From contig OZ024932.1 in NCBI GenBank assembly GCA_964017235.1, positions 80,665,451 through 80,729,450 on the forward strand: a stretch of DNA of 64,000 bases. The letters run 5' to 3'. A model generated the notes under the pieces. That model was given only the letters and a program-made list of their open reading frames with translations. It ran no database searches and was not told the DNA's origin. The position numbers were made by a program, and so were the translations under genes. Positions 26,375 to 54,101 of the stretch are shown here, piece by piece. The stretch's first letter is position 1; every line of letters starts with the position of its first letter. Origin of the DNA: Sabellastarte sp. h YS-2021. Taxonomy: Eukaryota > Annelida > Polychaeta > Sabellida > Sabellidae.

Positions 26375-26475
26375 GGTTGAGTAGATATAGACTGAAACAT
26401 TATTCAACCACTGAAGCTCCCACCTTATCAAGAGTTCATACTTAAAATATCTACAACTGCACTGGATTTGTGAAG

Positions 26476-29400
26476 ATGGCTATTTGTAAGTTGACTGTTT
26501 TACAGTTTCCTTAATTGGTAATTCTCATGAGTGCACATTAAAAGCTCTGACTTAAAAAATGGACTTACATGATTAGCAATAACTGAAGTAAAATATTTGT
26601 ACAACAAAAGTGATTGCTTGATTTATCAATACAATACTAAATAATTGATCCTATAAACAGAATGGGGATAATATTTTTCAAATTTACCTTACACCACAAT
26701 AAAAGTAAGCTTTTACTGAAAGTAAAAGAAAACAACTCAATTAATACCAAGTTTACTCTTTTCTTATTTCAAAGACACATGAACTGATTAAAAGACATAC
26801 CCGATGGCTTACAGAGGTTGTACACTTGCATGTCCATTTTTCAGGTGTTCTTCTTCTCTTGGCTGTCTCTTTGCCAAGTCTACTTTTGGCAAAACCTTTA
26901 GATCCAGAATTGGCATTACAAACACCAAAGACTCTGACTACAGCAGAACCCAGTCTGCAGGATGAGCAGTCCTCTGGACAGAGTCAGGAAATCACTCCTG
27001 TTGTGGTCTCAACAAATGACAGGCCTAAAAGAGACTTGGAGTCCAGCATTATGGTGCGAGAAATCCAAAGGAAGCTCAACTACTCGTACACCAATTATGT
27101 AAGTAAAATTATTTTATCTAAATAGGTGAATTTAATTGGCTGGAATCTGATCACATGACAAATCACCAGCAACGTTAATCCCACAACACAGAACCGATTT
27201 ATTTAATTATTTTGTGTAATAGGTATCGCGTATAGCATATTCATAACAGCTATGAACTCAGGATAAAATTTAGAGATAAGCACACAAAATAATGGTCAAT
27301 TCCACACCAACCACAAAAACCGTGCTCTAATCATTAGAACAAATGATACAAAGTAAAAGGTAGATTATGTTCCAGTTAGAATTATGTTTCCAGTGCTTCA
27401 AAAACATACTAGGGAATGGTTGATTCAGATAGTACTCCCAAAATACACTAACTACCAACAAGGTTTAAGTACGTTTGTTTCAAGTCAAAAGGAACAAAAT
27501 ATGGTTGTGAAAAACCTACCAAAAGCAAGAGTTGATTTTGTGTTACTTATGACAGCCAGGTTGATATTTTAAAAGTGCATGATTCTACTGTTCAACGTTT
27601 CTTACTTATCCCCCAGCCAGTTGTAAATTTGAGACAACTGATCCTTTCAGAAAAAAAAGTCGAGTAAACTAACAAACTACATTATCTGTTATTGGATAAT
27701 TCCTAAGACTTATCTCTCGGGAAAAGATTACTTGGTTCTATTTTTGAAGAAGAGCGAGTAAGATAGGTCATTGCAGAAATAAATTAAGTCCCAACACCAC
27801 TGTGATACCCGGACGATTTTTTATAACTGTCTTATGGCTGAAAAGACTGCAGATAAGTACTTCAGAATGTATTTTGAAAGTATATTTTGGAAAAATAAAT
27901 ATTAATTTGGAAAAAAAATGTCTACCGTGTCTCTAAATGGGCTTTCACTTTACAACTGGAAGAAGGGATCTGATCATAGCACATTTCTATCTGAATGTGA
28001 CACTTAAATGTAGAATAATAATCTATTTTCCACATGCCAAAAAAGATGTCTCAATATATACAAGGTAGCAGTGATGTAGAGTTAACACACGCTAAGTAAT
28101 GGACCACAAAGATTTAGGCTTTGCAAAACATTGCACAGTTTGGGTTTGAGGCCTGTTGGTTTGATAAAAATAACCATAACAGCCTCAGAAGGAGATCTGA
28201 ATGAACTATGCTAGTATATATTAGTCAACGCATAGTGATTATTCATACCTTCATGTTTTATTTTGTATTTTGTTTTCTCAAAAAGTAAGACGGGTTTTAA
28301 TTTAGTCTTTGTATTTCAGTGTGATAAAGTTCACTCCACATTGCCCCATGTACAACATCACAGGCATGCCAGGACCAAGTGCAAAGTGTTTGCTGTCAAA
28401 CATTGGACAGGGCCAGATATTCTGTGTGAGGTGAGTAAGTACTCACATAAGTATTTCACTACGTTGATCAATAAATAATGTATTCAATTAGAGCAAGAGT
28501 GAGTGAGTGAGTGAGTGAGTGAGTGAGAATTTGTGACTGACCATTCCCAATATTAAATCATGTCTATGTTAGACACACACCGCCCTGCTGTAAAAAGGTA
28601 ATGTAAATCTGCTGTCATTTTGCATACTCTTACTGACCAACAAACAGAATCAAAAAAATTCCATGAACTCCTTCGATCAAGGATCATCCAGATTATAATA
28701 AGAAATATACTATTTCACAACTTTCTATTATAATTTAATGTTGCTGATGTCAAATCAGGCTTACAAACCTGCTAAATTTTTCTAGAAACAAAACTTAAAA
28801 TGTTAACTTTACAGTAAGACCACTAAATGTAACACTGCAAACAAAATATGGAAAGGTGCTGGGAGGGGGGGGGGCTTTCCTGGACACATGAATCCCCTCC
28901 TCATGGGTCCACCTCTGAGATTCACCCCTGAGAGCAAATATCTCATATTTTCTGAAGATATGTTGATTTAATTCCATCACAGGCCTCTCTGAAACAAATG
29001 TACCTTCACATGAAGCTCTACCACAGAATGCTAGTAGAAATGGAAAACAAACTACATGATGTGACCCAGGTTGAAGAGTGCACAGCAGACTATGTGTCCG
29101 TTTTGGAAGTCTGTGAATCCTCTGATGCCAGCATTAATTGCTCTAGTACTTGGAGACCAGAAAAATTACTGTATTGCTACCTCACCACTCCACGCGTTGT
29201 AAACATGCTGGATAATGTTGTGAACAAGCTGGAAACAAAGGTAAGTGTGAGGACTTGTCATATTCGTACTTGTATACACTCATGACACCAGTTTCCTACA
29301 ATTTTCTTTCTAATTATATTGGTTCAAAATTGTGAAAGGGTGTGGCTTCAAAATATAATTTTAAAATTATATTATATTAGAAATTTTAAACTGTTCGACA

Positions 29401-29862
29401 TTTCCATCCCTCAAAATTTCCACCCACAAAAGATGGTATCAAGTTCTGCATGGAAACTGCAAGGTGGCTGGAGGTGTGTATCAGGGTTCCACAGGAGGTA
29501 CTACATTTCTCCTCTGTTTTTCCTGCCATCTGTAACTGCGGGAAATACCGCCTGTAGTGTCACTGGGGCATTATTCTCTTGCAATCAATTTTATTTTAGA
29601 ATCTTGTAATTTCACACTGCTTTTGCTGTCATTTTATAATAATATGACTACAAATTACAACTGTATGCCTTGTCTCTATTGTTATTTGTATTTGTTACTT
29701 TCACAGTTGACCTTTGTACCACAGTTGTGTGACCAGCACTTCTTTGGGAATCATCTGGCTGGTAGGAACATGTTCCGGCATAAATTCCTGACGGCGCTTT
29801 ACTTCGCAGTACAACAGTTACAGAGTATGGAATCCACTATAGTGGACATTCTCAGTGCCTAA
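26476..29862 (+). CDS. Gene A: secreted helical-cytokine-like protein, 5 exons, 262 aa
   Basis: Exons: 26,476-26,485; 26,845-27,098; 28,320-28,430; 28,983-29,240; 29,707-29,862. Introns have GT-AG ends and phases 1, 0, 0, 0. The first exon codes MAI plus one base; splicing completes MAICVLLLLAVSLPSLLLA, a textbook signal peptide. A propeptide of about 45 residues ends at RPKR-D, a furin-type site, followed by a predicted helix ending NYSYTNY (one N-glycosylation sequon; a second is NCSS in exon 4). Exon 3 holds three cysteines around KCKVFAVKHWTGPDILCE. Exon 4 has helix ASLKQMYLHMKLYHRML and the motif TWRPEKLLYC. Exon 5 ends in an amphipathic helix, FRHKFLTALYFAVQQLQSM. Exon count, phases and helix placement match vertebrate IL-6/G-CSF genes. 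No sequence family is recognised directly, so the cytokine role is inference. Gene B is its paralogue. Confidence 0.82.
28497..28528. repeat. (GTGA)n microsatellite in gene A intron 3
   Basis: About eight tetranucleotide units lie about 65 bp after the exon 3 splice donor. Confidence 0.9.
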
Positions 29863-31030
29863 AAAGTGGTAGCCAAATAACACTGATACACTTATAATTT
29901 TATGGTACTATGTATAATTTGGTGAATTTAGAGGCTTTGGGTGAAGCCAACGTTTAACATGTAATCACTAAAACTCTTCACAAAATTTTGCACCATATAA
30001 CACATGTGAACATAAGTTTTATACACTGTCTTAGTTCTCTGAAGTATTTCAATGTATATGCATACCGTTTTAGGGATTTAGCACATATTTTACATCTAGA
30101 TAGGCATGTATAAGAAGTGTTGATTTATCAAGAATAAGGAGAGAGTCAGAAGCCATTTAGGACATGTCTATGCACCCTGATGCAAAGTGACATGTGTTAA
30201 AAATAGTTAACTTGGGTGTTTAAAAAGGATGTATAATCCCAGGTTTAAATATTTAATATTTCCAGCCTGTGATATCAATCCTCAAACCATCAAGTATCTG
30301 TTTGTTTTGTTATTTTTTTTAATGTACAGTGTCTATAAATGTTATTTTTTGTGCTGTCAAGTTTATGTATGTAGCATAACATGCAGTATTTCACTTTCTC
30401 TGGCATTTAAATATAAATTGCTCAAGTATGTGGTAACTATATATTTATTCAGACGTTGTTATGATATGTATTATACTCAGCTCTCACTTAATTTATTGCT
30501 CAGACATGTTACAGTTTTTTGTTTATTTATTCAGTGATTTAGATGTTTTAAAACCACAGTATTATTTTACACACAATAACCAGCACCATACTTCCTTAAA
30601 TGTATATTGCTCATAATGTCCCCCGTTGTAACTTGGTACAATTTCAATAGAAAATCTTTCTGTGTGTTTACTGCAAATGTTTTAACATTGATTTCTTTGG
30701 GTTAAAACAGGCTTTAACACGACCACAAGTCACAAACCAACTTTACCCACAAAAATCACACACATTAAACTCTAGCAATGCTCTGTAAGTTGCGATAATC
30801 TTATTTCTACATGTAACTGGCTCTCTTAATTAACATACAATCAACACGTTACAGTGCTCTGTTCTTGTATTGACAATCCAGATTGACCAAATATAATTTT
30901 ACCTTGCTGTATTGGGATGTTCATCAAATCTTGGCTGGCTGGAAATCTAATGCCCATGGACACGTATGAGTGTGGACTACTTTTCTGCCTCCTCTTTGTG
31001 CCAAGTTACGACTCCAAGCAGTATGCTGCT

Positions 31031-31482
31031 AATACCCCTTTCACACTGCAGGCAGTACGCCCCATGGTTACAGGTGATCCAAGTCGCCCCATTTTATCTG
31101 AGTTGTTCCCATAACAGGCGGTGTAATTCACAGTTATACACTTTTGGCAAAATGCCCCTGTCCTCAACTACCATTCGAGATTTGTATGCGACCTTTTGTC
31201 ACATTGGCGAAACGTCCATGTACCTCCACTCACCTTATGTCGCTGTATTACACCAAAAGATGACCGAATCACAACCTTATGTACACTGTGGACCACACCT
31301 TTGGTTACCGTAGTCAGAAATACGCTCAAAGCGCAAAATCGTCTGTGCATTCTTATGGTACCGAAATCAGAGACAGAAACTTTAAATAGTTTAACACTTC
31401 TGTACAGTGGTACAAGGATAGGGACGTTTCACCAAATGCAGCCTACCGTGGGTGATACCACCCGAAGTGTGAAAGGGGTATT
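31031..31482. mobile_element. MITE-like TIR element, about 450 bp, in the gene A 3' region
   Basis: The left end AATACCCCTTTCACACT (31,031) is matched exactly in inverted form at 31,466-31,482. TA or a TA-containing triplet flanks each side. The interior has no transposase. If transcribed, the two ends could pair in the gene A 3'UTR. Confidence 0.75.
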
Positions 31483-31938
31483 ATAATTTACACATTATTT
31501 TGTAAATATCAATATTACCTTTTGTTTAAGTATTAATATAAGATAATATAAAGTGTTGATTGTACTAATGAATTAATGGACTATATAAACGAAGATTAGA
31601 ATACTCAATGGTTACGTACATATATATTTCAAAGCTTCGCATTTGACTTTGTTGTGTATCTGGTGTTTTTTACACCTATGTTCCAGCACATGCCCTTGTA
31701 TTGTTGTTAATTGAATTTACTCTATCACCTTTACTGTGTCTATATCTACCTTAAACCATTAAAGTGTATGAATACTTTGTGTAACCTAGATATATAAGAA
31801 ATGTTAATGTACCTAAATCCTGCAATATTCCTTTAGATGTTTATGGGAAGTCATTTGTTGATTTTTATTGGACTGTCTGTGTCGGACTTATGTTATTTAC
31901 AGTATGTATTATTTTAACCAGTATTACTTTCAACGTGA

Positions 31939-31944
31939 AATAAA
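31939..31944 (+). terminator. Candidate poly(A) signal of gene A
   Basis: AATAAA, followed within 30 bp by a T/G-rich stretch (GTATTGTTTCTTTTTG) suitable as a downstream element. It is the first canonical hexamer after the gene A stop. Confidence 0.5.
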
Positions 31945-32209
31945 TGAATCTGCAAATTAAGTATTGTTTCTTTTTGTATTTATTTATTTAGCGTTTTATG
32001 TCACACTTAGTATCAGTTATATTGTCACAGTACACATACAGTTGTCTAGGTCCTGCACTGCAAACTGCTGACCAACGGCAAGGAGCTCCCCCAATGATTA
32101 CTTCACATATAAATGTGAAACACACCACTCATATTTCATATAACTTTTAAATCAAAATGTCTTTCAAGACACATCATATAAAACTACGCCAGCTAATACA
32201 ATTGGGTTG

Positions 32210-32420
32210 AAATTATGAGGGCTGCATGGTCTTGTAGTTTTTAATTACTTAGGTTTTACACCTCTCTGGTCGTGGGTTCCAATACAGCTTGGTGAAACAT
32301 GCAGGCTTCACTGAAAGCCTGTCCCAATATCCCCTCAGTGCCTGGAGTGTAAACACTCCAACCCAGAATTCTGTTGTGATTACAAACCCTGCCTAAGCAT
32401 ATTTCTTTTCTGTTAAAACT
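32210..32420 (+). mobile_element. Possible tRNA-derived SINE, degraded
   Basis: A-box-like GCTGCATGGTCTTGTAG and B-box-like GTGGGTTCCAATAC are separated by roughly tRNA spacing and followed by about 140 bp that ends before an AT-rich stretch. No target duplication identified. Confidence 0.4.
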
Positions 32421-33580
32421 ACAAAATACAAAGACTACATTAAGCATATTATTATGTAAAGTGATCTAACTGCAGATCTTTCAAGAAGGTGTTTATTTAG
32501 TGTATCAAATATCTGCTTAATATAATGCCTGCATCACATCAGAGATCCGTCAGGTTACACCATGAAAATGATCAAAAATTGGGGGAAACAGGAGAAATGG
32601 CGGGGGAGACAGTAACTTAGGCCAAATTTGGCAACAGTTTAAGAAATAGGTGAACATAGCACTGAAAGTGAAATTTTTGATATCTTCAAAATTTTTAATT
32701 GTTCTTCCCGTTGCTCCTCCACCATTCCCATCAAAAAGACCAATGACATAAGGAAATGGGAGCAAAGATCGGATCTAACACGACACAAAGTGAGAGGACA
32801 TTATGGAATGGATTGCTATATATAGAGACGGGGAACCCATGAAATCCAAGTTGATATAAGTGGTTTCCCTTCTCACTATGTCACAAAACATTCCCCAAAG
32901 TTTGTCACATTGCAAAACATGGCCCATCCTATCTCACTGTGTTACTGTCCCTCTACTTTCCCGTTTTATTACTTTGGACACCGTTTGTAAAACTCAGATC
33001 CGGTCAAAATACTGAGATGTGCATAAACATTGCAGTACGGCATCACCCAGTGGATAGCTATCAACTTTGGGAGACAGGTAGCCATTTGGAACTCATTAAA
33101 GAGAAGGGGAGCTAAATGAACAGACGGAGAAATAGACAAGAGTGAACAGGAGCATTTTTTTTTGTTGAAAATTTTAGGCTGGAGATGGGATGTGACTTGG
33201 AAATTTCAAGTTTGGGGACAATTTTCCCATTTGTGTGAGACGTTTGCATAGCATGGTGGAGCTTTGATGCGATGCAGACATTAAGGTTCAACCAAAGGGA
33301 AATACCGTGAAGTACAAGTTTTTTTTCTGTAGGGAACCAACTAGCTGTAATGTATGTTCAATAAATATAGAGTAAAATGGTTGATAAATGGTAAATTGAA
33401 ACCCTGACAAAGAAACCCAACATGAGGCCTTTCAAATAAAAATGAGTACTGTTCCACCAAAATGCTGTCTATAACTCTTTGGGATTGAAATTGCTACCTT
33501 TAAGAATTAGTAAAAAATAAAAAAAGTTTACCAAAGGCTTAAAGAAAAGACTTTGTTTACACTCTCAAACCTCTTTTTGG

Positions 33581-33640
33581 TGTACGTTGATTTCGTTTAT
33601 TGCGGAAATGTGTACGTTGATTTCGTTTATTGCGGAAATG
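33581..33640. repeat. Exact 30-bp tandem duplication
   Basis: Two identical adjacent copies of a 30-bp unit beginning TGTACGTTGATTTCG. Identity suggests a recent slip or an assembly effect. Confidence 0.9.
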
Positions 33641-35555: not shown

Positions 35556-38500
35556 TTATGGGGGATATGCTTTTGCAAACAGGTATGTTTTAAGCTTTTT
35601 TCTGAAGGAGGCAACTGATGCTGCACTGCGCACATCATGAGGGAGTTCATTCCAGATCTTAGGAGCATCAAAGGCAAAGCTGTGATCAAAATGTTTGACT
35701 GACTTGAAGACTGATGAGCGGAAAGGAGGAACAGTAAGGTATTGATGATCTGGGTGACTACTCCTGGTACTATAGGAACAACTGCTGAGTGACAAGAATG
35801 GTTGAAAATAGGAAGAAGAACCACTATGTAAAAATTTATAAACTAGTGTTGCAGTTTTGAACATCCATCTATACTTAACGGGGAGCCAGTGGAGTTGCTT
35901 CAGAATGGGTGTCACATGAGCATACTTTCTATGATTTGTAACAATCTGAGCGAGGGTATTTTGAATACTTTGCAATTTGTGCTGATTGAAACATGACAAA
36001 CCCCTAAACAGAGGGTTGCAGTAGTCTAGTCGACTACTAACCAAGGCATTTGCAGCAAGGACTGCCACTTCTGGAGTAAGATACTGTCTTATTCTACGAA
36101 GGTCGCGCATCTGAAGAAAGCACGCTTTGCAAGTCCTCTTGATATGTTCAGAGAAGGAGAATTCCGCATCAAACCACACACCTAGATTTCTGACCGAGTC
36201 AGCTGGATGAAGAAGGCTACCAAGAATACTAACAGGAAAATGGGAGGAAATCTTCCGATGCTGAGCCTTAGAGCCAAAGACAATAAATTCAGTTTTTTCT
36301 GGGTTGAGTTTCAGTTTACTACGAGACATCCATCATTGCACATCATGAAGGCAGGCATTTAGCTTGGCAAAAGCAGCAGAGGCATTCTTATGGGAGAGAT
36401 GGATGTATAGTTGTGTGTCATCCGCATAGAAGTGGAATTTAATATGTGGATGAAGGCGGATGATTTTGCTAAGTGGTGTAGTATAAAGTGAAAACAGCAA
36501 TGGACCCAGAACAGAACCTTGGGGAACTCCATAGATGAGCTTGCTTAATTCAGATAGTGTGGAGCCTATCTTGATGGTCTGGCATCGATCACTCAAGTAG
36601 GAAGCAAACCACTTTAGAACAGTTCCACCAAGACCAAACCAGGATTTCAGGTAACCAAGGAGAATATTATGATCTATGGTGTCAAATGCGGCTGATAAAT
36701 CAAAAAGAACTAGAGCCGTAGGTTCACCGCATGCCAGAGAGAGATGGACATCATTTTTATTGGCAATAAAGCTGTTTCAGTGGAGTGTCCTGGCTTATAA
36801 GCTGACTGATGTTGATTGTCCAGTTTGTTATCATTGATGTGTGACGTAAGTTGCTTAGCAACAACTCGCTCCACCAACTTCGACAGGAAACAAAGACCAG
36901 ACACTAGGCGATAGTTCTTAAGGTCGTTTCTGGGCAGAGAAGCCTTTTTAATGAGGGGGGTGACAACCGCCCTTTTGAAAGCACTTGGGAAAGAGCCATC
37001 AATGAGAGCGTAATTTACCAACTTGGTAATAGACAGGAGGAGTATATCAAGACAATCCTTAAGGAGGAATGTTGGTATGGGGTCCAATTGGCAAGATTGA
37101 GTAGGAGACTCTTTGATGCACTTACTGACTTCGTCTTCAGTTACAGGCTTAAAGGTATTGAAAGCAGGGGGCACCGATTCAGGTGCATCATTGAACGAAC
37201 CAGAAGTAGGGAAAGTGTCCCCAATTTTGCTGATTTTATTGGTGAAGTAAGAAGCAAACATGTCGGCAAGGCTTTTTTCTGAGGAATGAGCTGGCAGCAG
37301 CAGAGGCATTCTTATGGGAGAGATGGATGTATAGTTGTGTGTCATCCGCATAGAAGTGGAATTTAATATGTGGATGAAGGCGGATGATTTTGCTAAGTGG
37401 TGTAGTATAAAGTGAAAACAGCAATGGACCCAGAACAGAACCTTGGGGAACTCCATAGATGAGCTTGCTTAATTCAGATAGTGTGGAGCCTATCTTGATG
37501 GTCTGGCATCGATCACTCAAGTAGGAAGCAAACCACTTTAGAACAGTTCCACCAAGACCAAACCAGGATTTCAGGTAACCAAGGAGAATATTATGATCTA
37601 TGGTGTCAAATGCGGCTGATAAATCAAAAAGAACTAGAGCCGTAGGTTCACCGCATGCCAGAGAGAGATGGACATCATTTTTATTGGCAATAAAGCTGTT
37701 TCAGTGGAGTGTCCTGGCTTATAAGCTGACTGATGTTGATTGTCCAGTTTGTTATCATTGATGTGTGACGTAAGTTGCTTAGCAACAACTCGCTCCACCA
37801 ACTTCGACAGGAAACAAAGACCAGACACTAGGCGATAGTTCTTAAGGTCGTTTCTGGGCAGAGAAGCCTTTTTAATGAGGGGGGTGACAACCGCCCTTTT
37901 GAAAGCACTTGGGAAAGAGCCATCAATGAGAGCGTAATTTACCAACTTGGTAATAGACAGGAGGAGTATATCAAGACAATCCTTAAGGAGGAATGTTGGT
38001 ATGGGGTCCAATTGGCAAGATTGAGTAGGAGACTCTTTGATGCACTTACTGACTTCGTCTTCAGTTACAGGCTTAAAGGTATTGAAAGCAGGGGGCACCG
38101 ATTCAGGTGCATCATTGAACGAACCAGAAGTAGGGAAAGTGTCCCCAATTTTGCTGATTTTATTGGTGAAGTAAGAAGCAAACATGTCGGCAAGGCTTTT
38201 TTCTGAGGAATGAGCTGGCAGCAGCAGAGGCATTCTTATGGGAGAGATGGATGTATAGTTGTGTGTCATCCGCATAGAAGTGGAATTTAATATGTGGATG
38301 AAGGCGGATGATTTTGCTAAGTGGTGTAGTATAAAGTGAAAACAGCAATGGACCCAGAACAGAACCTTGGGGAACTCCATAGATGAGCTTGCTTAATTCA
38401 GATAGTGTGGAGCCTATCTTGATGGTCTGGCATCGATCACTCAAGTAGGAAGCAAACCACTTTAGAACAGTTCCACCAAGACCAAACCAGGATTTCAGGT

Positions 38501-40468: not shown

Positions 40469-41149
40469 TCAATGGAGTTGCTTTTACAACTAACATGGCC
40501 AAGAACACACTACTGGATCCAAAAAAAACATAAAAGAAACAAGGACTGTGCAAAAATAAACTATGACAAGAAACAGAAATGGGAAAAGATCACAAAAGCC
40601 TAAGGGTTAACAAACCATACAAGCAGAGAGACCCATAAATTACTATCAATCAAAGCAAGAGTTGGAAACACCATGTACAAGTATAAAGTTAACATAAAAA
40701 AGCATTAAAAACCATAAAATAGACACTGGGACAAGAAAAACTATAGAGTAATCACTGGGACACATCAGGTGATAACGGGGAATGTGAAACACATCAACAA
40801 AGGGTTGAATAAATACTACACGATAATGGGGAATGTTAGTGCAATCACCCCTTGGTGATTGCGTGTCAGTCGGTTTGTACTAGTCCGTGTAATAAACTCG
40901 TCCGTCTGCCTGTGGGCCAATCATCTTTGCTGTTTCTGCTTCAACCAATCAGAAGCTTTTACTGTTTTACCTAGTGCAGGGACCTCATTCAGTGTCATTG
41001 TATATCTAGAGTTTGATGAATGAACATTGGGAAAAATAAAATCTTTAATTTCTTTTACTGTTTTAGTTATGGCTTTGCGTACATGTTGTTATTGAACTTT
41101 CTTTTATCCGTTGTTTGTGTGGTCACGTTAGTGACGAAATCTCACGTGG

Positions 41150-42667
41150 ATATGCTGGCATGCAAAAAGTGCGGGACTGAACACGAAAAACCTACTGGTA
41201 ATAAATGTGAACGGTTTAAGATGGAGAAGGAAGAAAAGAAAGACAATACTAAGGAACAATCTGTTAAGAAGACACCAAAGAGCAAGCCGTCTACGTCTGG
41301 GTCATCACAGGACAAAATGATGGAGCTCATGCTCGCGTCTATGTCATCTGTCACGGAAAAGTTAGCCGCGATGGAGGAACGTATTACGGGTTTGACAGAA
41401 ATCTCATGACATTATACAAGAATCCACCAGTAGTCGCAAATCTCGTTCACGTGAGAAGTCGAAGAAATGTGAATCTTCAGACGAGAGGCAGAACATTCTC
41501 ACTACACACTCCGTCATACAATCTGACACAGGTGTAGCCTATTCAAAAGTGTTCCCGGACACGGCTGTAGCATTAAAACACACAGCCACACCTGCCAGAG
41601 TGAAGAAACTCAAGAATGACGCTGATTTGGGAGTAGCTCCACTCTCGCGAGAACTCATTCCAACTACACCTTATTCGTTTGCAAGCTTAGCCACTCCGGC
41701 GAGAGTCACATCCACCATTCCTGCTGCAACAGCTTCTCAACACTGGGAGACAACAGGTGACCTACAAAATAAAATAGAGTTTCGGTTACAAGACAAACAG
41801 CCACAACGTGATTTTAATCAGAACGTTTTATTACATACCGACCAGTACGGGAATCCCGTTCAGGTCCAAGCTATGGTTGAACCCACAGGAGTTCCCGTGC
41901 AGCCGGAGCCAGCTTTCTTTGAGAAACCTACAGACAGTGTTAGTAATTCGCAGTCTATTGATGCGTTGAGAGCCAACCCCATGATACAGAAGCTAGTGGA
42001 GGAGAGAGTTGCAGTCCTTGAGAGCAGGATGAGATCTGAACTTCAACAGGGTACAAGTCACAGACGCAAGAGTGGACGTTACAACATTGCAGAAACACCA
42101 CATAATGCCCCCCCATCTAAGATGGCCGAGGAGTCCTGTTTCACTGGGACACAGAGAAAACGTACTCCATACGATGACCTCTCATTGGGTCAATTTGTAG
42201 TGGGATATATCAATAACGTTCTTGATATACAACATGTAGAGACAATGAAGCACATGCTAACGGAGTTAGGGGAAGTTGTGAAATTAGCAGAAAATCTTTC
42301 ATGGCCAATCGCAAGAGGCGCGTTCGCAGTATCCATGCACAAAATAGAGGAAGAGGCTATCACATGGGCAGACCGTCGCGTCTTGGCAGACAATAGATTG
42401 ACATACTCTCAGTCGGCTGTCTTTAGTGGGAGTGTTACTATGTCCCCTAGACCACCAAACTCACCTCAGATTGCCGGGGGGACGAAAAAGATCGTTTGCA
42501 AGTGGTACAATGAGAATTCGTGCCCTCACAACCAGGATCATCTTGATACCACAGGGACGACTCTGTTCAAGCATGTATGCATGCATTGTTTTAAGAACCT
42601 GAAGCAAAATAACGCACACAGAGAATCTGATTGCCTCAACAAGAACCGAGTGTTTACCAGTGAATAG
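41150..42667 (+). CDS. Ngaro-type gag-like region (fossil element)
   Basis: The N-terminal part has CKKCGTEHEKPTGNKCERF, a small Cys/His cluster, followed by a lysine-rich linker and a likely coiled coil (MELMLASMSSVTEKLAAMEE). The C-terminal part ends with a second cluster of pattern C-x6-C-x-H-x3-H, then HVC-x2-CF, then H-x4-DC (CKWYNENSCPHNQDH ... FKHVCMHCF). The fossil at 56.4 kb carries the same cluster, so it is a family trait. Likely role: binding of element RNA; inference. Confidence 0.7.
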
Positions 42668-42899
42668 GGACGCACCGGCCGTACTCTGCATTCTAATGAC
42701 TATGACTGTAAATTTGGTGATGGGTGTTTTGCTGGGGTCCACCCCAATATTATTACTTATGAAAAGTGTTCTGCTCTTATTTGTAACGTCTACTCTTGTG
42801 TTTTAAAAATTCATGGCCATGGGCCGTACAATAATCTTTATGATAGAAAAGTCTCACAGTTTATTGGTGCACCATTATTATCATGTAATCTCAGTCACG

Positions 42900-44695
42900 T
42901 ACTTTGTGGTGTGCCCATTATGTCTGACAAATCACAAGTTGTGCCTATGGCGGGCCACCAGGAGAGCTGGTCTCCCGAGTGTAATGAGAATAACATTAAA
43001 ACTTTGTTTGATGAGAACTTGGGTTTTGTTACTGAAAACACCGACTTGTCTAACTTACCTTGTGACTCACCTGTTAACATGAATGATCCTATTGAATATC
43101 TTAGGGTCGTTGATCTCATTCTTGCCTCAGGTCTTCCCAATTACAAATCTGTTAGGATTCCTCTGCCTTCAGGTTTTAATTGGGATTACATAGAACAGCA
43201 AATACAAGACTATCATGATAAAATTATTTTAGACTACATTAAGTTTGGCTTTCCACTGAGTATAAACCGTGACTGTTCTATTAGATCTAATGCAACTGAC
43301 AACCATTCTTCAGCTAAGGCATATAGGGATGAAGTCACGCAGTTCATACAAGAAGAATTAGATCACGATGCGTTACTTGGTCCTTTTGAACAAATACCGC
43401 ATCCAGCCTTCACCTGGTCTCCCTTGATGACACGACCTAAGGGTATGGGTCGTCGCATCATTTTGGACCTATCTTATGGTGATTACTCTCTCAATAAATC
43501 CACAAATAGAGAGTGCTTTGATGGTAAACCCTTCACTTTAAAACTACCGTCACTGGACCACTTAACATCAGACCTTGAAAAATATGGCCCGGATGCCAGG
43601 TTATTTAAGCTTGACATTTCTCGCGCTTTTAGGAACGTGAGAGTTGACCCAGCAGACGCCATACATCTAGGCGTCATGTGGCAGAACAAATATTACATTG
43701 ACAAGAACCTGGCTTTTGGAGCTGTCCATGGAACAGCTATTTTCGAAAGAATTTCTAATCTCATCCGCTTTATCTTGGCCAAGCAGGGTTTCAAAGTACT
43801 GAACTATATAGACGACATTTATGCAGTTTGTCATAAGGATACAGCTCAAGCAGCATATGAGACCTTGATTAGTGTCGTTAAAAATATTGGCCTTCCTATT
43901 AATATTTCAAAATTGTTCCCCCCTTCTACGGAATTATCTATATTAGGTATTGTAGTTAACGTCAACACCAGAACATTTAGTATACCAAACGAGAAGTTTT
44001 AGGAAATCTCGTCACTATGTCACGAGATGTTATTGAGAGATCAAATGTCTAAGCGTGAGCTGCAGTCACTATTGGGGAAGCTGTTGTACGTCTCCAGGTG
44101 CGTTCGAGGATCTCGTATCTTTTTAAATCGCATATTGCAGCTACTGCGAGATCACCATGATAGGAACCGTATTACCTTAACGCGAGAATTTCATTATGAC
44201 CTGCTGTGGTTTCTCAAGTTTCTACGGTCCTTTAACGGAGTAGTGGTCTTTAGGCGTGCCAGGGCTTCACAAACAGTTTTCGTAGACGCAACTCTCACGA
44301 GAATTGGGGGAATTTGGGGCTCGCGGGCATACACAGCTGAAATCCCGTCTAACATCTCGTCCGAGACCTCTATTACGCAGCTTGAGATGTACAACATTGT
44401 CGTGGCTTTGAGACTGTGGGTACACGATTGGAGTAATAACATAATTTGTATAAGGTGTGATAATGAGAGTGCGGTGTCAGTTTGCAATTCTGGTAAAACA
44501 CGTGATAGTTTTCTCAATTTATGTCTGTATGAATTGTGGTTACTGGTCTGTAAATATAATGTGGATTTACGTGTGTATCATATTAGGGGCACAGACAATG
44601 TGATCGCGGATGCATTATCCCGCAATAAGTGTGAAAAGGTGGGTCCAGTTACTTGGGAGACAATAACAGACAGTATGTTATCCATGTCTTTGTAG
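42900..44695 (+). CDS. Ngaro-type reverse transcriptase and RNase H region (fossil element)
   Basis: Positions rounded. RT motifs: MTRPKGMGRRIILDLSYGDY, LFKLDISRAFRNVRVDP, AFGAVHGTAIFERISN and YIDDIYAVCHKD (catalytic Asp pair). RNase H motifs: TVFVDATLTRIGGIWG, QLEMYNIVVAL, RCDNESAVSVCNSG and NVIADALSRNK. The wording of these boxes fits the Ngaro/PAT side of tyrosine-recombinase retroelements better than DIRS. Confidence 0.83.
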
Positions 44696-45669
44696 GAATA
44701 CCTGTGCAGTCATACCCCTTGTTGAGGGAGGCACTTGCCAGAAGAGAACAGGGAGTTAGGAAACACACTGCTAATCAATATGACAGACAGTTTAAATTAT
44801 TTTTAGCTTTTACCTTGTCAAGAAAAATCACACACATGGATTCTGTGTCTACCCTGTTACTGTTCTTAGAATTCTTGGCATCTAATGCCCTTACATACAG
44901 AGTGGTCATGAACTATATGTCAGCCCTAAAATCCATGTTTGGGAAATATAATTGGTCTCTCCTGGCCTTTGAATCCCCTTTGGTCAAGAGAATGCTGAAA
45001 GGAATCAACTATACAGTCCACAACCATCCTACCCCTAGAGGCCTCTTTACTCTACAACAAATTTGTGAGATATCACGTCTCTGCGAGATCTACGAGTCTT
45101 CTTTGACATATCGAGCTACCTTCTTACTGGCCTTCTATGGCCTCCTCCGCATTTCAAATATTGCCCCCCCATTTGCTAGAGCCTTTGATCCAGCAAGGCA
45201 TTTGCTGAGACGGGATGTGACTTTCTTGTACCCAGGCACTCACATTGCTTTAAAATGGGCTAAGAACTTGCAAGCACCTGAGAGAACACACACAGTTAAG
45301 CTCCCACAGGTTCGGGACCCCATGTTGTGTCCAACACAGACCTTGCAAGATCTTTTAACCAAACGTGAGTTGAAACCATCTGATCCGTTGTTAATACTGG
45401 ATGATTATTCGCTGTTGTCACAATCTCACCTCAGGAGGCGTTTAGCTACTCTCGTTCGTAGTCTCGGCCTTCCCATTACGGGATTTGGCTTTCATACATT
45501 TAGACGTTCGGGTGCTACCTTGGCTTACGACTCCAACATCTCGCTCACGGCTATTAAAATGCATGGAGTGTGGAATAGTGACGCGGTCTGGTCATACATA
45601 TCTGATAATACATCACAATCATTACAGGTTCCCCTCGCTTTTCAAACGTTAGCAAATGCACTACCATAA
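44653..45669 (+). CDS. Ngaro-type tyrosine recombinase (fossil element)
   Basis: 338 codons; the beginning overlaps the RNase H region. Core-binding part: KHTANQYDRQFKLFLAF and YMSALKSMFGKYNW. Catalytic part: FYGLLRISNIAPP (Arg), GFHTFRRSGATLAYD (His-x-x-Arg), KMHGVWNSDAVWSYIS (Trp and candidate Tyr). The open frame is long and intact to its stop, consistent with a young copy. Confidence 0.85.
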   Translation: MGDNNRQYVIHVFVGIPVQSYPLLREALARREQGVRKHTANQYDRQFKLFLAFTLSRKITHMDSVSTLLLFLEFLASNALTYRVVMNYMSALKSMFGKYNWSLLAFESPLVKRMLKGINYTVHNHPTPRGLFTLQQICEISRLCEIYESSLTYRATFLLAFYGLLRISNIAPPFARAFDPARHLLRRDVTFLYPGTHIALKWAKNLQAPERTHTVKLPQVRDPMLCPTQTLQDLLTKRELKPSDPLLILDDYSLLSQSHLRRRLATLVRSLGLPITGFGFHTFRRSGATLAYDSNISLTAIKMHGVWNSDAVWSYISDNTSQSLQVPLAFQTLANALP

Positions 45670-46134: not shown

Positions 46135-46285
46135 TGTTATATTTACAGTACATATCATTATTACGACTTCATTATAATGACATAGTATATCTGGTTATTA
46201 TTACTTAAAGCCTGTTATAATGAAATAGCACATCTCGTTATTGCAACAAAGATCTTGTTATAATGACATAGCGCATATTGTTATT

Positions 46286-46829: not shown

Positions 46830-46960
46830 TTATTACATTAAAACCTCGTTATAATGACATAGTACATCTTGTTATTACAACAAAAACCTCGTTATAATGA
46901 CATAGCACATCTTGTTATTAAAACTTAATCTTATTATAATAACATTGAATATCTCATTTA

Positions 46961-47200
46961 GGGACCATGGTGACGCAATGGTAACACACTCGCCTCCCAC
47001 CTCTGAGGTCAGTTGTTCAAACCCAGGACCTTAATTGGAAAGATGGTAACTGCTTACTCATGGTCGGCAGTTTACAGTACAGAACCTTGACCAGCTGTAT
47101 GTGCTGGATTCCTCTGCCCTATACAGTGTTGAAGTAATGTTAAAACCCAAATAAATAAATAGGTAAGTAAATAAATAATAAATAAAAATAAATAAAAATT
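46961..47200 (+). mobile_element. tRNA-derived SINE with AAATAAATA-type tail
   Basis: A-box-like CATGGTGACGCAATGGTAAC and B-box-like GTTGTTCAAACCCAGG are followed by a body containing GTCGGCAGTTTACAGTACAG and a tail of AAATA repeats. ATATCTCAT occurs just before (46,949-46,957) and just after (47,203-47,211), a plausible target duplication. Same family as the fragment at 3,180. Confidence 0.8.
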
Positions 47201-47211
47201 GCATATCTCAT

Positions 47212-48456
47212 AATTATGATTTATATCACTTTCTAATAACATGGCATTATTATGACTTATTTTTTCATTATAATGATAAATAGTTTTTTCTGTTTCATTG
47301 CACTGTCTGGGCCGGATACCTGTGAAATTGTATAGCGAATCATACACACTACGTCAAATAATGTTTTCAAAAGCAAGGATTTTTATTTTAAAATGTTTCA
47401 CGGATAAATTGTTTGAAACTGTACAGTGATACTTTTACCTCAAGTGTTTATGTATATTTGCTATTTTGGTGCAATGTAAGTATGAATTTGACCTTTTTGA
47501 CACATTAATTTAGTTTAGTTCACTAGACTATATGTGATAACTGCGTGAAATATTCAAGGAATACATGAATTTTCAGGGAATGGTTTGTTACGCATGGTGA
47601 CTGTAACATACCATATACAAACTAGCATTTCCCAACAATAAGGCTTATCATATTTTTCAAGTGTGACATTTTTCATCAAAAAAGCTGAAATTGCATAGTA
47701 GTGAACTTATCACTCTGTGTAAACCCAGCTCTATAAGTGATAATCAAGACTTCCATGAATACATTTCACATGTCACAGATTATTCCTATAATAAACTTTG
47801 ATTTTGTAGAGTTGCAAATTTGTATGTACCTTGATCTTACCCAAGTTCTGATGAAAAATTATCAAACTCTTTCTCTCTAATTTCCTCGTTTCTGTCACAC
47901 TATTGTGGCTTTATATTGCATTACTTTACTTTTATTAAAAGAATTCTAAGTGTTCGTCCATACATTTTAGTAAAAAAATGGTTACGTGACAATATTTTCA
48001 CAAAACTTGTGAAAATTTTTTAATCCAGTTCTTTGTAATCAAATAGCTTAACTAGCTTAAATATTCCAAGCCATAAGCACATTCATTTGTTGCATTGAAC
48101 TGGTTTTGAAGTATCCGACTTTCCTGTGTCCAGTTTTGTTGGTTGTAATTACATGGATCATTTTGTACTGAGTTGACCTCGGACGGTAGAAGTCACTAAG
48201 GGGTGAAACTGATTCTATTAATTGTTCTTTATTATTCACCAAATAATATTAATGAGCTCAGTAGGGTGATTTTGATCAATTTACCTGATAAAGTATATAC
48301 GTCTTTTGTTTTCAGTTAACTCCTTTTTTTGTGGTAAGTGCTGTTTGATGTCATGAGTAAACCTGAGAACAAAGGTAAGCTTCCCGTAAAATTTTCCTAC
48401 ATATATTCTGTCTTTCACTTATGTCAGAGTATATTAATAGAAAAACATTGCTAAGG
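47212..48456. other. Upstream region of gene B, non-coding
   Basis: AT-rich DNA. The only notable item is a short exon-like block at about 48,316-48,374 described as a possible alternative first exon of gene B. Confidence 0.45.
48316..48374 (+). other. Possible alternative first exon of gene B
   Basis: An acceptor-like TTTTGTTTTCAG ends at 48,315. An ATG at 48,353 opens MSKPENK plus one base, followed by the donor GTAAGC at 48,375. It leaves phase 1, so it could splice to gene B exon 2 in frame and give a more hydrophilic leader. Chance is possible; transcript data are needed. Confidence 0.3.
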
Positions 48457-48464
48457 TATATAAA
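48457..48464 (+). promoter_or_regulatory. TATA box of gene B
   Basis: TATATAAA lies 55 bp before the gene B start codon, giving a predicted 5'UTR of about 25 nt. The start context is AATATGG with A at -3 and G at +4. Confidence 0.75.
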
Positions 48465-48511
48465 CCCTGTGGGTTCAGTTGGACACAGTATTCACACACA
48501 AAGTGTCAAAT

Positions 48512-50993
48512 ATGGAGGGAATCCGTAAGTTATCAGAGCTTCCTCTTATATTTTTACTGTTTACCCAGTGAAGTTTGATAAACCTTGAAGTTAGCGACCT
48601 GTCTTAAAACTATCAAGTACAAGTTATATCTTTATTTGGAAGAAATTAAACAAGTGCATACAACAGTAATGTATCATTGTAAAGAAGTCTTAATGTTGTC
48701 AAAAAAACATGTATCTTACCAAACTTCAAAGGTGGGTGACAAACTTTACTGAGCAGTATTATTTACATCGTATCTCTAAGTATAGTTCATGTTCATAATT
48801 ATTTATGAACCTGTTTAGATATGTTATTATCAATGGTGGCAACAAAGTAAACAGTCTCTTGAATATCCAAGGAGTTTAAATTAATTTTGGTTTTTATTCC
48901 CATTCCTGGGATTATTTAATTCCAACTTCAGGTGTAATGATATGCATGACTTGGCTCCTGGGAACATTTGGAGACTGCAAGCCGTCGCCACATGACGATA
49001 ACCTGATTAGCTTTGATTACAAAGAGCCAGTTATTGGTGAGAGATTGAAGAGAGACCTTTCTCCTGAATCAGCGACCATGATTGATCAGGTTTTGATTCC
49101 AATAGAGAATATATATACAGAATACGTAAGTACAGTTCAAACTGAATGGTTGATTATTTCTTATTTTCTCAAGAGTACCAGTTCTGTCATTTCATGTATT
49201 GTATGTCAAAGTCAAAGTTGGGGTTTTACGTCCCGTTCAACAGCCAGGGTGATATTGGGACAGGTCCTCAGAATTGACACTTGTGGGACTCGAACCCACA
49301 GAGGTGACAGCCTATGATTAGATGCCAAACTTGCTAACCACTAGGCCACTGAGGACCTCTCATGTATTGTATGATTTAATGCAATACATCAACGCTAACT
49401 AATGAAATGTAAACAGAAAAAAAGTAACAATAACTGAGAAACTAATAATAAAAAACCCTCCTGAAATAGAATCCTCACTGGAAATTTTATCTTTTAAACT
49501 GATCAATTATTTATGTTCAACAATCACAAATAAAATTTGTTTTCCCATAATGCACCCTTAAAGATAATTAAGACTCCTACATAAATATATTAATTTATTT
49601 GAATACAAGACTTTCGAATAAAAAGTTATCTCACTTTTAAAAAAAAATCGTATATATACATATTATCGACCATTCTCTTGAATTTTATTATTGTTTTTGT
49701 AACTATTTTAGATATATATATTTTTTAAATTGTATAATTCAGTGGACACAAAACTGCTTATTCATATTTCTATTTTGAAGATTTTGAATGTGTCGTTCTG
49801 TAAAATACAAAACTTATTATTTTTCATGGTATTTTAGAGAAAGGCAATAATGTCTAATTCTTTAAATTGTACTATTTGTTGTTCATATTGCTATTTTTAC
49901 ACGTGTTTACACGTAATTCCTTTGATTAGGTTTGTTTTGGGGTTGCTATTTATTAGATTTTTTTGTATATATGTGAAAGTTTAACATAAGACCTGCTGTT
50001 CTGATTTCTCTTGTCATTATGTATGACTGTAACATAGAAGGGTAAATACATTTCATACATTTATGTCCAAACTTGAATACCGTAAGATCATATTATTTTT
50101 CTAATTTAAATATAGATGTTGGTGAAAATTATATGGAGCAGTTTATTGAAAATTTGTGTCACTCAGATTTCAAAACAATGGCTTCACTTATTTATGTTGG
50201 AATGCAAGAAATAGTTTGACTTTTTCAAAAACAGTTGATGAAAAGTTATATTTCCAACACTTGTTTAACGTACATAGTGACTAACAGGATTGGGTATAAT
50301 TATACGTTTGCATATTATTATATTGTGCTTATCACTGACATTATATTTGCCACTTAAATAAATATATAATATTTCAGTGTAACAATGTACAGAGTGCACT
50401 GTCTGGTGTGGATGATGTGGACGATGCTCAGAAGAGATGCAAACTATTTGCTCTAAAACACTGGCAAGGACCGGGAGTACTTTGTCAGGTGATAAACCAC
50501 TCAGATATTTTTGTCTTACATTTAAGTTTTTCAATCAAAACAAATTATTTATCAGTAGATCTGCAAATGAGATCACTGTTTTCCACAGTTCTGACCGACT
50601 GGTGAATGAATTTGATATGTTACCAGTAGGCTCTCACTCCTGTGCTTATGGGCTTGAATCCAGATTCTGACAAAATGTAAGATTCTCTAGGTGCCTCTCC
50701 AGGTATAACCTTGACGGGTGAAATTGACGTAAAACCCTAAGTTTGATTAAGTTCTGTGAGCTCTTTCTGCTAACATTTATCATATCAATTTATAACAAAG
50801 TTATCATATAGTAATGAGTGGATTTATCATAACATTCAAATACTTAATAATACAATGATTTTAAGACTGTGCACTTAACAGGATACAAGACATAATACAA
50901 TCACACTGATGTGAGTACTTCGATTCAATTACTTCTGATCAAGCAGAAAACTAGCTGGTATAGATGACATTAGTTGGAAAAGTTTTTTTTTTA

Positions 50994-51034
<41 letters not shown>

Positions 51035-54000
51035 ACCCCATATTATACCTTTACCGACTGATTCAATATTCTTACAGGTCAAAAATTATTATTTGATAAA
51101 TAATAGCATTTTACTAACCTAATGTAAATATTTCAGTATAAGAACCAATTTGTCAAATTTGTAACAGTAATCTGGCTGAAGATGAGTTCCATTCTTTTTC
51201 TGCAGCGTGTATAGCGATCTTCGACATATTGTGTAAAGTTACATTAATGCAATACAGATTACGACAAATTAAGCAAAACTGGGACATTTCAAGTGCTGTG
51301 TACACATACCCAGTGTCTATTGGAACATACATAAAGCATACGGAAAATGTATACTACCGCCAAGACACATCACATAAAACAAATCCCATTTAAAATCTGG
51401 ATACAGGTTTGGTTCCAGATCATTCGTAAAAATAAATCAACTTTATGTTATACCAAGAGCCATCTGCTGTAACAATATGATGTCAATCTGTACGGTAGTA
51501 TTGTCATAATGTTGCTTACAAACAGAATCCAATCATCACATTACCCCAATGATAGAGATTAAAAGGACTTTGGAAGACAACCGGAGTTATTGTACACTCA
51601 AAACTGATCATTTGAGCAAGAGTCACAATTTTAAATTTAAGAATAGCATATATAGAAGAGAAAAGGAAGTCTCTTCACAAACACAGTGTCACAGGACAGA
51701 AATAATGTCATTGCTATCAGTGACCAATAAGCCGTAGAGGTCAGTTGTTAATATCTTTGTATTGTTAAAATGCAGATGAATCTTATGTGACACTTGTTAT
51801 AGTAAAATAAGTATAAATAAACATTTACATCTCGTAATTTGTAAACAATTTAAATTGCTTGCAAATTACACAAGCTATACATTTCATTATTATATTTACT
51901 TTAGATAGAGTAAGAAATCTAAAATTCGCCACATATCTGAAAGTCGCCACATGTGAAAATACTAATAAAATAAATGAATTGTGGTGAGATTTGTTTACTG
52001 TATAGTAAATTAAGGCTTTTGGAACTAAAAAATACCAATTTTTAGACAAAATCATCATTTTCTTCATAAAATTAACTAAGGTTTTAGAGGTGGCGAATTT
52101 TAGATTCCTGGCGAATTTTAGATTTCTTACGCTACGCAACCCCAAACAGAAGTAAAATAAACGGCTTCAAAAATATCTGAAGATCCCTCCCTTGTTAAAA
52201 GGCACTTGGCAGAAATTGAAATAGCTTCTGCTTTTTTATTTTGATACCTTTGAACACATAACTTGTGTAGGATGACCTTATAATAATTTGGGGTTTCGGT
52301 AGATTTGAAAGGTGATCAAATAAATGACTTTACAAATGTTTAAGCAATATGTTGGCAATCAAATGTAAATCCTCCACGTTGAAGATATAAGGTAAACAAA
52401 ATAGTTGTGATAAAATATGTGAAGGTAAAGGGTGGGGCCAAATTAAATTACAACTAAAGGTCTTTGTAATAGGTTTTATTTGTTATATCGATACACGTCA
52501 TAAATCATAAACTACATAGAATTGGAAAGTACACAATAAATGCAAACTTGAATTCATCATATATAAGATTACAAAAAAAAAACAAGATATCCTAAGCTGA
52601 ATGGTTGTGTGATTAGGGCACATATTAAGTCTGAAAAATATTTATTTAAAAAATCTTTAAAAAAATATGGATTTTATGGTTAAGTTATGCTACTTTACTC
52701 AGCCAAGCTTCAACCTGTTTTAACCTAAAGCCAGTCACTGTATTATTGTATTGAAGGCCTCACAGGAGCAGTTGTACCTCCACCTACAACTCTACCACAA
52801 AGTGTTAAGGAAGCTGATAGAGGTTCTGCCTGTGTTGACTGAGGCTGAATCTTGCACTATTCACTACCTGTCTGCCTTAAGGTCTCATCCTAGGGACCAG
52901 TTTGTGACCACATGGAGGCCTGAGAAGATTCTTTACTGCAGCGTTACCTATCCTATACGACGTGTACATATGCTGGAGAACCTCATGAATACAATAAAGG
53001 TAGGTAATTCTTGCCAAATTCAAGTGTCCATGGTCTCCAATGTAATTCCAACATGGTTGAAATGGGAAGATGAGATCAGAGGTACAAACTGTCAAAATAT
53101 ATCACTGTTGTGGATGAACTGGAGCATCTTATCAGGAAATTGCCTTTATGTTTTCTATCATAGTTGAATGAAATCTCCAGGTTTGATTATTGGCCCTAAT
53201 TGGGAAAGTTTGGAGTGGCTCACTAGTGTCTGATGTGTTATCAGGCAGAATTCTGCCTGACTAGTGTACTAATCTGCAATGCTTTCTGATATAACCTATA
53301 TACAACTGGTTGAAAGTAACGTTAACCTAAATCACCCTCCGGGTGGTCCTAGAATTAAGAAATAAAACAACAAGTGGGTTTAAAATTTCTATTTTGAATC
53401 TTTTGACATATTTAAAGTTCACCTTAAAGTTTCAACCGAACAGAAAGCAAAGGTCAAAGTAATTTGAAAACCAATATCAAGCAATTCGCTGTGACCTTGA
53501 AAAAGATGAAGGTCAAAGGGATGTAATAATAAGCGCGGGGCCCTGTGACCTGTGAGCCCAGCCAATGTCAAAAAGAACATGATTCAATTAAATTACTTGA
53601 CGTTATATAAAATGGAGGAAGGTTATGTTATATACAAGTAGACCAAAACTTAAAGGAGTTTAAATTAGGTACAGAAAGTAGTCTGTACATAACGTCTCTA
53701 ATTTGTTTTTAGGAATTAATGTGGTTGAGGTAAGCCTCTATGTGACTAATCAATGCCCAATCAAATTATACGATACAAACCCAATGATGATCAGTACTAA
53801 ATTTCTCTGTAACTGGTACCCAAATACCGGCCTGAAAAATCAAATAAATGTGATAATCACAAAAAACTAAGATTTTGATTATCACATATAGACAGCCTGA
53901 TGTTTCCATAACATTTTATAATTCTATTTTCAGCCCGATGTTGTTTCGGCTGAAGCAGAGCTAGTGATGGACCTCCCGACCACTCGACTCTACAGATCTG

Positions 54001-54101
54001 CAGCAAGGAAATATACATTGAGCTTTTTCTACTTCTTGGTTCAACAACTAAAACAGACTAAAACTCTCCTCATAGAATCTCACAGAGACGGATCCCCATA
54101 A
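48512..54101 (+). CDS. Gene B: secreted helical-cytokine-like protein, 5 exons, 242 aa
   Basis: Exons: 48,512-48,524; 48,932-49,125; 50,378-50,488; 52,757-52,999; 53,934-54,101. All introns are GT-AG, phases 1, 0, 0, 0, as in gene A. Exon 1 codes MEGI plus one base; joined to exon 2 it gives MEGIRVMICMTWLLGTFGDC, a short hydrophobic leader. ERLKR-D is a furin-type site at the place of RPKR-D in gene A. Exon 3 is 37 codons as in A and keeps its three cysteines (CKLFALKHWQGPGVLCQ); 17 of 37 residues are identical. Exon 4 starts ASQEQLYLHLQLYHKVL and has TTWRPEKILYC. Exon 5 ends in a helix with FFYFLVQQLKQTKTLL. The exon 4 acceptor could slip 9 nt, with GEN A homology favouring 52,757. It lacks gene A's extra cysteines in exons 4 and 5. 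A cytokine role is inference from gene plan and fold features. Confidence 0.8.
49206..49359 (-). mobile_element. tRNA-derived SINE, recent, in gene B intron 2
   Basis: On the minus strand GGTCCTCAGTGGCCTAGTGG holds an A box (TGGCCTAGTGG) and TGTGGGTTCGAGTCCCACA holds a near-perfect B box. The body ends in GACGTAAAACCCC. An exact 14-bp target duplication, TCATGTATTGTATG, is at 49,192-49,205 and 49,360-49,373, so the insertion is recent. Confidence 0.92.
50590..50745 (+). mobile_element. SINE fragment in gene B intron 3
   Basis: B-box-like GGGCTTGAATCC is followed by a body with AGGTATAACCTTGACGGG and TTGACGTAAAACCC, the latter shared with the SINE at 49,206. The 5' part is too degraded to place an A box. 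Confidence 0.5.
50994..51034. repeat. (TA)n microsatellite in gene B intron 3
   Basis: About twenty TA units with one G interruption. Confidence 0.92.
51908..52132. mobile_element. Small MITE, 225 bp, TA target site
   Basis: The first about 43 bp (starting GAGTAAGAAATCTAAAATTC) is matched in inverted form by the last 43 bp with about six differences. Each TIR contains the word AAATTCGCCA or AAGTCGCCA twice. TA flanks both ends (51,906-51,907 and 52,133-52,134), which fits the Tc1/mariner group. It lies in gene B intron 3. Confidence 0.82.

Follow-up and report, generated by a model that had tools for sequence, protein, structure and literature searches.

Two tandem annelid genes with the exon plan of class I helical cytokines

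Do protostomes possess secreted ligands built like the long-chain class I helical cytokines of vertebrates? The question is raised by a 64,000-nucleotide stretch of the annelid Sabellastarte sp. h YS-2021 (GenBank assembly GCA_964017235.1, contig OZ024932.1, positions 80,665,451 to 80,729,450; hereafter the window). A first-pass annotation had described in it two plus-strand paralogues, here called genes A and B, and had labelled them IL-6/G-CSF-type cytokine genes. We re-read both genes from the raw sequence and spliced them. The existence of the pair as described is confirmed, and the gene architecture points to class I-like cytokines, whose identity is weighed below against several negative results.

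Gene A (26476-29862, + strand) and gene B (48512-54101, + strand) are separated by 18,649 bases and encode proteins of 262 and 242 amino acids (aa), respectively, each in five coding exons. The exon lengths are 10/254/111/258/156 nucleotides (nt) in gene A and 13/194/111/243/168 nt in gene B, the first exon coding for only three to four residues. All introns (8/8) begin with GT and end with AG, the intron phases are 1-0-0-0 in both genes, and each reading frame is uninterrupted up to a single terminal stop. Re-splicing thus agrees with the first-pass annotation in exon number, phases and first-exon size, and the motifs that it had listed (KHW-x-GP, WRPEK-[IL]-LYC and VQQL) are present in both proteins. 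Its "identical" exon 3 is identical in length only: the exon comprises 111 nt and 37 residues, the first of them a cysteine, in both genes, and 17 of the 37 residues are the same. The following exons are predicted to be joined in vivo.

26476-26485, + strand: gene A, coding exon 1, 10 nt, ends in phase 1, donor GTAAGT
26845-27098, + strand: gene A, exon 2, remaining signal peptide, propeptide to DRPKR and start of the mature chain (putative helix A), phase 0
28320-28430, + strand: gene A, exon 3, 111 nt, Cys start, putative A-B loop, C-x14-C around KHWTGP
28983-29240, + strand: gene A, exon 4, putative helices B and C, WRPEKLLYC linker
29707-29862, + strand: gene A, exon 5, putative helix D (VQQL), stop codon
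48512-48524, + strand: gene B, coding exon 1, 13 nt, ends in phase 1, donor GTAAGT
48932-49125, + strand: gene B, exon 2, signal peptide, propeptide to ERLKR and start of the mature chain (putative helix A)
50378-50488, + strand: gene B, exon 3, 111 nt, Cys start, putative A-B loop, C-x14-C around KHWQGP
52757-52999, + strand: gene B, exon 4, putative helices B and C, WRPEKILYC linker
53934-54101, + strand: gene B, exon 5, putative helix D (VQQL), stop codon

Comparison of the two coding sequences identifies the pair as an old tandem duplication that has been kept under protein constraint. The proteins share 36.7% identity across 207 residues (blastp expectation value (E) 2e-40), far beyond chance, and 36 of 80 aligned residues are identical in exon 4. 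Within 191 aligned mature codons, the first, second and third positions differ in 100, 63 and 125 cases, as in constrained coding DNA. The upstream junctions of exons 3 and 4 fall in the same alignment columns in A and B; the exon 4/5 and exon 1/2 junctions are offset by two and four columns, respectively, in poorly aligned parts. At the DNA level, only two matches remain below E 0.01, one in an intron (E 1e-5) and one where exon 4 begins (E 0.002). A third gene copy was not convincingly detected when both proteins were compared with the 64-kb window (best other match, E 0.59).

The intronic stretch lies in intron 3 of both genes (28539-28654 in A, 51418-51532 in B), spans 119 columns with 68.9% identity (E ~5e-6) and has no additional copy within the window at E 0.01. 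It is either a noncoding element that both copies have kept since the duplication, or an old repeat. Intron 2 of gene B carries on the reverse strand, judged by eye, a candidate for a short interspersed nuclear element (SINE) of the tRNA-like type (49205-49365), with a 43-bp partial copy at 50704-50746. ARAGORN reported no tRNA gene in the window, the SINE candidate included.

Both precursors have a hydrophobic N-terminus, as judged by eye, and an RxKR motif (DRPKR in A, ERLKR in B) directly before the aligned mature chain, which starts with DL. On this basis, furin-type processing is predicted; convertase cleavage at the motif would leave mature chains of 196 and 197 residues. Both products would then lie within the range of secreted long-chain class I cytokines, whose mature chains have ~160-200 residues. 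The five aligned cysteines of the first-pass annotation are borne out in the mature chains, at positions 23, 43, 58, 92 and 124 in A and 25, 45, 60, 94 and 122 in B, with the shared spacing C-x19-C-x14-C-x33-C-x31/27-C. This odd number is the total in B; A has three extra cysteines (103, 112 and 153), giving eight. Possible N-glycosylation sites number two in A and none in B.

The vertebrate class I genes for growth hormone (GH), erythropoietin (EPO), G-CSF and IL-6 have a short first coding exon ending in phase 1, followed by three phase-0 introns. Exons 2, 3, 4 and 5 of these genes code for helix A, the A-B loop, helices B and C, and helix D, respectively. Genes A and B both display this phase plan, and the likeness to GH and EPO extends to the size of the first coding exon (10 nt in GH and 13 nt in EPO). 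Since the plan is common to all four families, it does not single out IL-6/G-CSF, and IFN-lambda 2/3 have a similar first exon.

The finer measures were compared with human G-CSF and IL-6. Exon 3 encodes 37 residues in A and B, 36 in G-CSF and 38 in IL-6, and its cysteine is the first residue in A, B and G-CSF and the second in IL-6. Exon 5 encodes 51 (A) and 55 (B) residues, against 54 in G-CSF and 55 in IL-6. G-CSF shares with A and B the five coding exons and an exon 3 whose opening Cys follows a phase-0 junction, which in G-CSF lies behind helix A. Alignment of the long G-CSF isoform in PDB entry 1gnc shows VSE inserted exactly before the exon-3 Cys, which fits a splice border at this place. 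Five exons are also described for the G-CSF genes of carp, human and mouse (PMC6389648). The pattern C-x5-C then C-x9-C before helix B, found in human G-CSF and IL-6, does not occur in A and B. This mismatch carries low weight because the four cysteines are described as likewise unconserved in carp G-CSFs (PMC6389648).

We read A and B as divergent, furin-processed class I-like cytokines that would act through a gp130/Domeless-type receptor, and we regard this proposal as evenly poised between right and wrong. The case for it is carried mainly by gene architecture. The gene models, the paralogy, the open frames, the RxKR motif and the phases and positions of the introns are read directly from the DNA; we infer in-vivo splicing, cleavage by a convertase, the fold, the receptor, the pathway and the cytokine role. 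On this proposal, both members of the old tandem pair would code for secreted long-chain helical ligands of class I type. Each precursor would consist of a signal peptide and a short propeptide, and a furin-like convertase would cut at RxKR to release a chain of ~196 residues. The chain would fold around a four-helix bundle with extra short helices in the loops. Helix A would cross from exon 2 to exon 3, where the A-B loop would follow; exon 4 would supply helices B and C, and exon 5 helix D. By pairing the chains of a class I receptor similar to gp130/Domeless or CRLF3, the ligand would then activate JAK-STAT signalling.

A number of results weigh against this proposal, beginning with the genes themselves. 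Exon 4 encodes 86 (A) and 81 (B) residues and is far shorter in G-CSF and IL-6, with 49 in both. A furin propeptide is unusual among class I cytokines, and the RxKR propeptide also sets A and B apart from G-CSF.

The database searches add to these points. In Pfam, neither protein matched a family above the cut-off; the only match was that of A to Jiv90 (E 0.14), and the IL6/G-CSF/MGF model gave no match at E up to 10 with the HMMER filters on, which speaks against membership of IL-6/G-CSF in particular. A profile search of PDB sequences yielded nothing significant among six matches up to E 10, the best being VAV (E 0.15). We read the Jiv90 and VAV matches as chance. Comparison by hhalign gave A/B a probability of 0.2% with G-CSF and of 0.8% with EPO; with G-CSF, the program picked the same place in exon 4 and helix B as the alignments described below, at that probability. 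The power of such searches is low: G-CSF found IL-6 only at E 0.33 (search up to E 1), IL-6 found G-CSF at E 1.6 (search up to E 10), and the class I cytokines that appeared in these two PDB searches were G-CSF, IL-6 and viral IL-6 only. Searches for relatives in viral contigs (92 pattern stretches) and in genome contigs (82) confirmed none; as the two collections consist of viruses and prokaryotes, the result is uninformative on animals.

An exon-anchored test, in which the proteins were aligned exon by exon and compared with within-exon shuffles, gave z values for A of 1.15 with G-CSF, -0.52 with IL-6, -0.94 with GH and -1.13 with EPO. The corresponding values for B were 1.72, 0.43, -0.58 and 1.94. 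The similarity to IL-6 is thus not above shuffles, and no significant overall similarity to G-CSF, GH or EPO emerged. In the controls, G-CSF and IL-6 reached 6.85 with each other, a level far from the -0.52 to 1.72 of A and B with these two, and the five remaining pairs of these four vertebrate cytokines ranged from -0.42 to 2.68. By this measure, A and B stand about as far from the vertebrate cytokines as different class I subfamilies stand from one another, being no closer and hardly more distant; unrelated helical proteins might score in the same way.

One local match stands out in this comparison. The start of exon 4 in A and B aligns without gaps to helix B of G-CSF, in register with the exon and one residue off its border. 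Column shuffling gave a joint p of 0.0025 when anchored (the floor of 400 shuffles) and 0.010-0.012 when free, with four families tried. The anchored column-shuffle test gave no such match with IL-6, GH or EPO, a further point on the negative side. We take the match as a weak hint, no more: it came out of a trial of four families, A and B do not count as independent cases, and the sister family IL-6 does not show it. Low p values with EPO (0.04 for the whole of B, 0.024-0.031 for exon 4 of A) are off the exon register, fail multiple testing and are read as chance.

AlphaFold was run on the mature chains, each model being built from a two-sequence alignment. The confidence was low and does not favour the proposal, with a mean predicted local distance difference test score (pLDDT) of 37.1 and 39.2 and a predicted template modelling score (pTM) of 0.24 and 0.25 for A and B, respectively. 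Both low-confidence models contain helix only, without strands, with helical segments in exons 2/3, 4 and 5. In A they span residues 2-29, 36-49, 62-85, 87-105, 118-126, 129-143, 162-185 and 187-195, and in B residues 4-31, 38-51, 64-84, 89-104, 129-141 and 160-193. These low-confidence models therefore have eight and six helical segments, not the four of the proposed bundle; those at 36-51 and 87-105 may be read as loop helices. A Foldseek comparison of the B model with the PDB, proposed as a check against long-chain cytokines, returned 11 rows, among them no cytokine (best E 5.8).

A scan for the hydrophobic moment in 18-residue stretches passed 12 of 245 stretches in A and 11 of 225 in B at p <= 0.02, where ~5 each are expected by chance, with overlap among the stretches. 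In both proteins the passing stretches map to the exon 2/3 border and to exon 4, the helix C part being represented in A only. No exon 5 stretch passes in either protein; the last exon, described earlier as an amphipathic helix with VQQL, has the VQQL and does not pass as amphipathic. Neither a confidently predicted different fold nor a clear match to another secreted family was found, the outcomes that had been named as contrary to a cytokine. A long-chain class I helical cytokine is compatible with the gene plan, with the hydrophobic start of the precursors and with the predicted helices; the tests of sequence and fold yielded no significant match to IL-6 or G-CSF. Neither the sequence nor the predicted structure yet proves that A and B are cytokines.

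A rival account is that A and B form a lineage-restricted secreted helical family, hormone- or effector-like and without a tie to class I, whose exon plan would be a coincidence or a common layout of secreted genes. The negative results in Pfam, in PDB sequences, by hhalign (G-CSF, EPO) and by Foldseek (B model) speak for it, as do the cysteine pattern unlike that of IL-6/G-CSF and the RxKR propeptide, a feature common in invertebrate prohormones. What such a family leaves to coincidence is the joint agreement of the phases, the length and Cys start of exon 3 and the length of exon 5 with the class I plan, together with one weak, register-exact helix-B match. We consider this account possible, on the doubtful side.

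The intron plan and the B model also touch on class II helical cytokines of the interferon/IL-10 type, to which A and B would be akin in kind to an oyster interferon-like protein. Class II cytokines have six helices, and the six segments of the low-confidence B model would suit them. For IFN-lambda 2/3, a four-residue first exon, an intron splitting the codon after one nt and then phase-0 introns are described (PMC2654155), and the oyster protein CgIFNLP, a proposed helical cytokine of a mollusc that we liken to A and B by description, is presented as structurally class II-like (PMC9756803). In IFN-lambda, five conserved exons are described after the short one (PMC2654155), whereas A and B have the short exon and four. 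Pfam gave no interferon/IL-10 match, though the class I models gave none either. Class II cytokines are an improbable answer.

Still less credible is that A and B are true members of the IL-6/G-CSF subfamily: exon 3 (37 residues against 36/38, with Cys first or nearly so), exon 5 (51/55 against 54/55) and the helix-B register match with G-CSF favour it, but the Pfam IL6/G-CSF/MGF model does not match, the z values (1.15/1.72 with G-CSF, -0.52/0.43 with IL-6) stand against 6.85 for G-CSF with IL-6, the cysteine spacing differs, and the label itself found no significant match in Pfam, PDB sequences, exon-anchored alignment, Foldseek (B) or hhalign (G-CSF).

If the class I-like reading holds, A and B would touch on a gap in the literature. 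A survey of 18 metazoan phyla/subphyla (2026) places IL6 in vertebrates only, reports that IL6R, JAK and STAT already coexist in Mollusca and suggests alternative ligands as activators (PMC13203501). The endogenous ligand of CRLF3 is described as unknown (PMC6797617), and Epo-like activity through CRLF3 is described for locust hemolymph (PMC8063046). For amphioxus, a GH-like hormone is reported together with several genes for divergent type-I helical cytokines of low identity to those of vertebrates, one of 208 aa (PMC9010856); we liken them to A and B by description, not by sequence or gene plan. Upd2 homologues are annotated in Drosophila species only, according to PMC5385356. IL6-like proteins are mentioned for fly and starfish, with no mollusc case in the passages considered (PMC8226699), and the available parts of PMC3296744 and PMC8226699 offered no further candidate ligands. 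Among the matches listed in open-licence PMC (titles and abstract openings), no protostome class I ligand gene besides Upd appeared.

The insect Upd proteins, which are Domeless ligands, would by analogy be the functional counterpart of A and B, as secreted ligands of a gp130-like receptor. A wider proposal is tentative, and in our view somewhat more apt to fail than to hold: protostomes, here lophotrochozoans, would have true long-chain class I cytokines keeping the vertebrate five-exon plan, a cytokine gene of that plan would have existed in the bilaterian ancestor, and the molluscan IL6R/Domeless-like or CRLF3 receptors would have in such proteins the ligands that they lack so far. With a candidate family that can be recognised by its gene plan, the ligand questions for the IL6R module and CRLF3 become open to a direct test. 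Intron phase and exon layout offer a route to divergent cytokines where BLAST fails.

The flanks of both genes carry signals that, like the RxKR site, are new beyond the first-pass annotation, namely the TATA-like boxes and the AUUUA-rich 3' flank of gene A.

26368-26375, + strand: gene A, TATA-like box TATAAAAG, position -108 relative to the ATG
48457-48464, + strand: gene B, TATA-like box TATATAAA, position -55 relative to the ATG
29863-30862, + strand: 1-kb 3' flank of gene A, AUUUA-rich, with 10 ATTTA and the nonamer TTATTTATT at 30523

On the + strand of the whole window, TATAAAAG occurs twice and TATATAAA four times. The 10 ATTTA downstream of gene A were equalled in 1 of 252 background 1-kb stretches, possibly one overlapping that flank itself; the 6 ATTTA in the 1 kb downstream of gene B were reached in 22 of 252. 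TATA boxes and AUUUA elements are characteristic of genes whose messages are inducible and short-lived, and are found in many cytokine genes. In this AT-rich DNA (GC content 38.8%), they are only suggestive of an inducible message. Upstream of the TATA-like box of gene B, an alternative short first exon was seen by eye (~48353-48374: an ATG, 22 nt, a GT donor, phase 1), which could also splice to exon 2.

The window contains 44 open reading frames (ORFs) of at least 100 aa, and a Pfam scan of the 10 around genes A and B gave six matches to mobile elements and none for the other four, a scan that could miss other spliced host genes. The six comprise reverse transcriptase in three (one below cut-off), a DDE transposase, an endonuclease and a tyrosine recombinase (below cut-off). 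The spliceosomal introns and these mobile elements mark the genome as eukaryotic and animal-like. Rfam found no family in the window. A tandem repeat at 21-345 (138 bp, 2.3 copies) contains many GACCTTGACC-like units; three motifs taken from repeats in the window, two of them of this type, had 0 matches each in viral contigs. The DDE transposase ORF, which we take to be Harbinger-like, and a nearby minus-strand ORF without a Pfam match, which may be its partner, occupy 21826-22230 and 23312-23983. Retroelements with reverse transcriptase lie at 12113-17504 and 41020-45669, the latter followed by the sub-threshold tyrosine-recombinase (phage integrase) match; both are presumably of DIRS/Ngaro type. 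A region resembling a long interspersed nuclear element (36372 to ~39120) consists of about three tandem copies with a period of 924 bp, and its self-match is exact over 1495 bp. It includes two identical 248-aa ORFs on the minus strand (36710-37456 and 37634-38380), and the repeat is either a very recent duplication or an assembly artefact.

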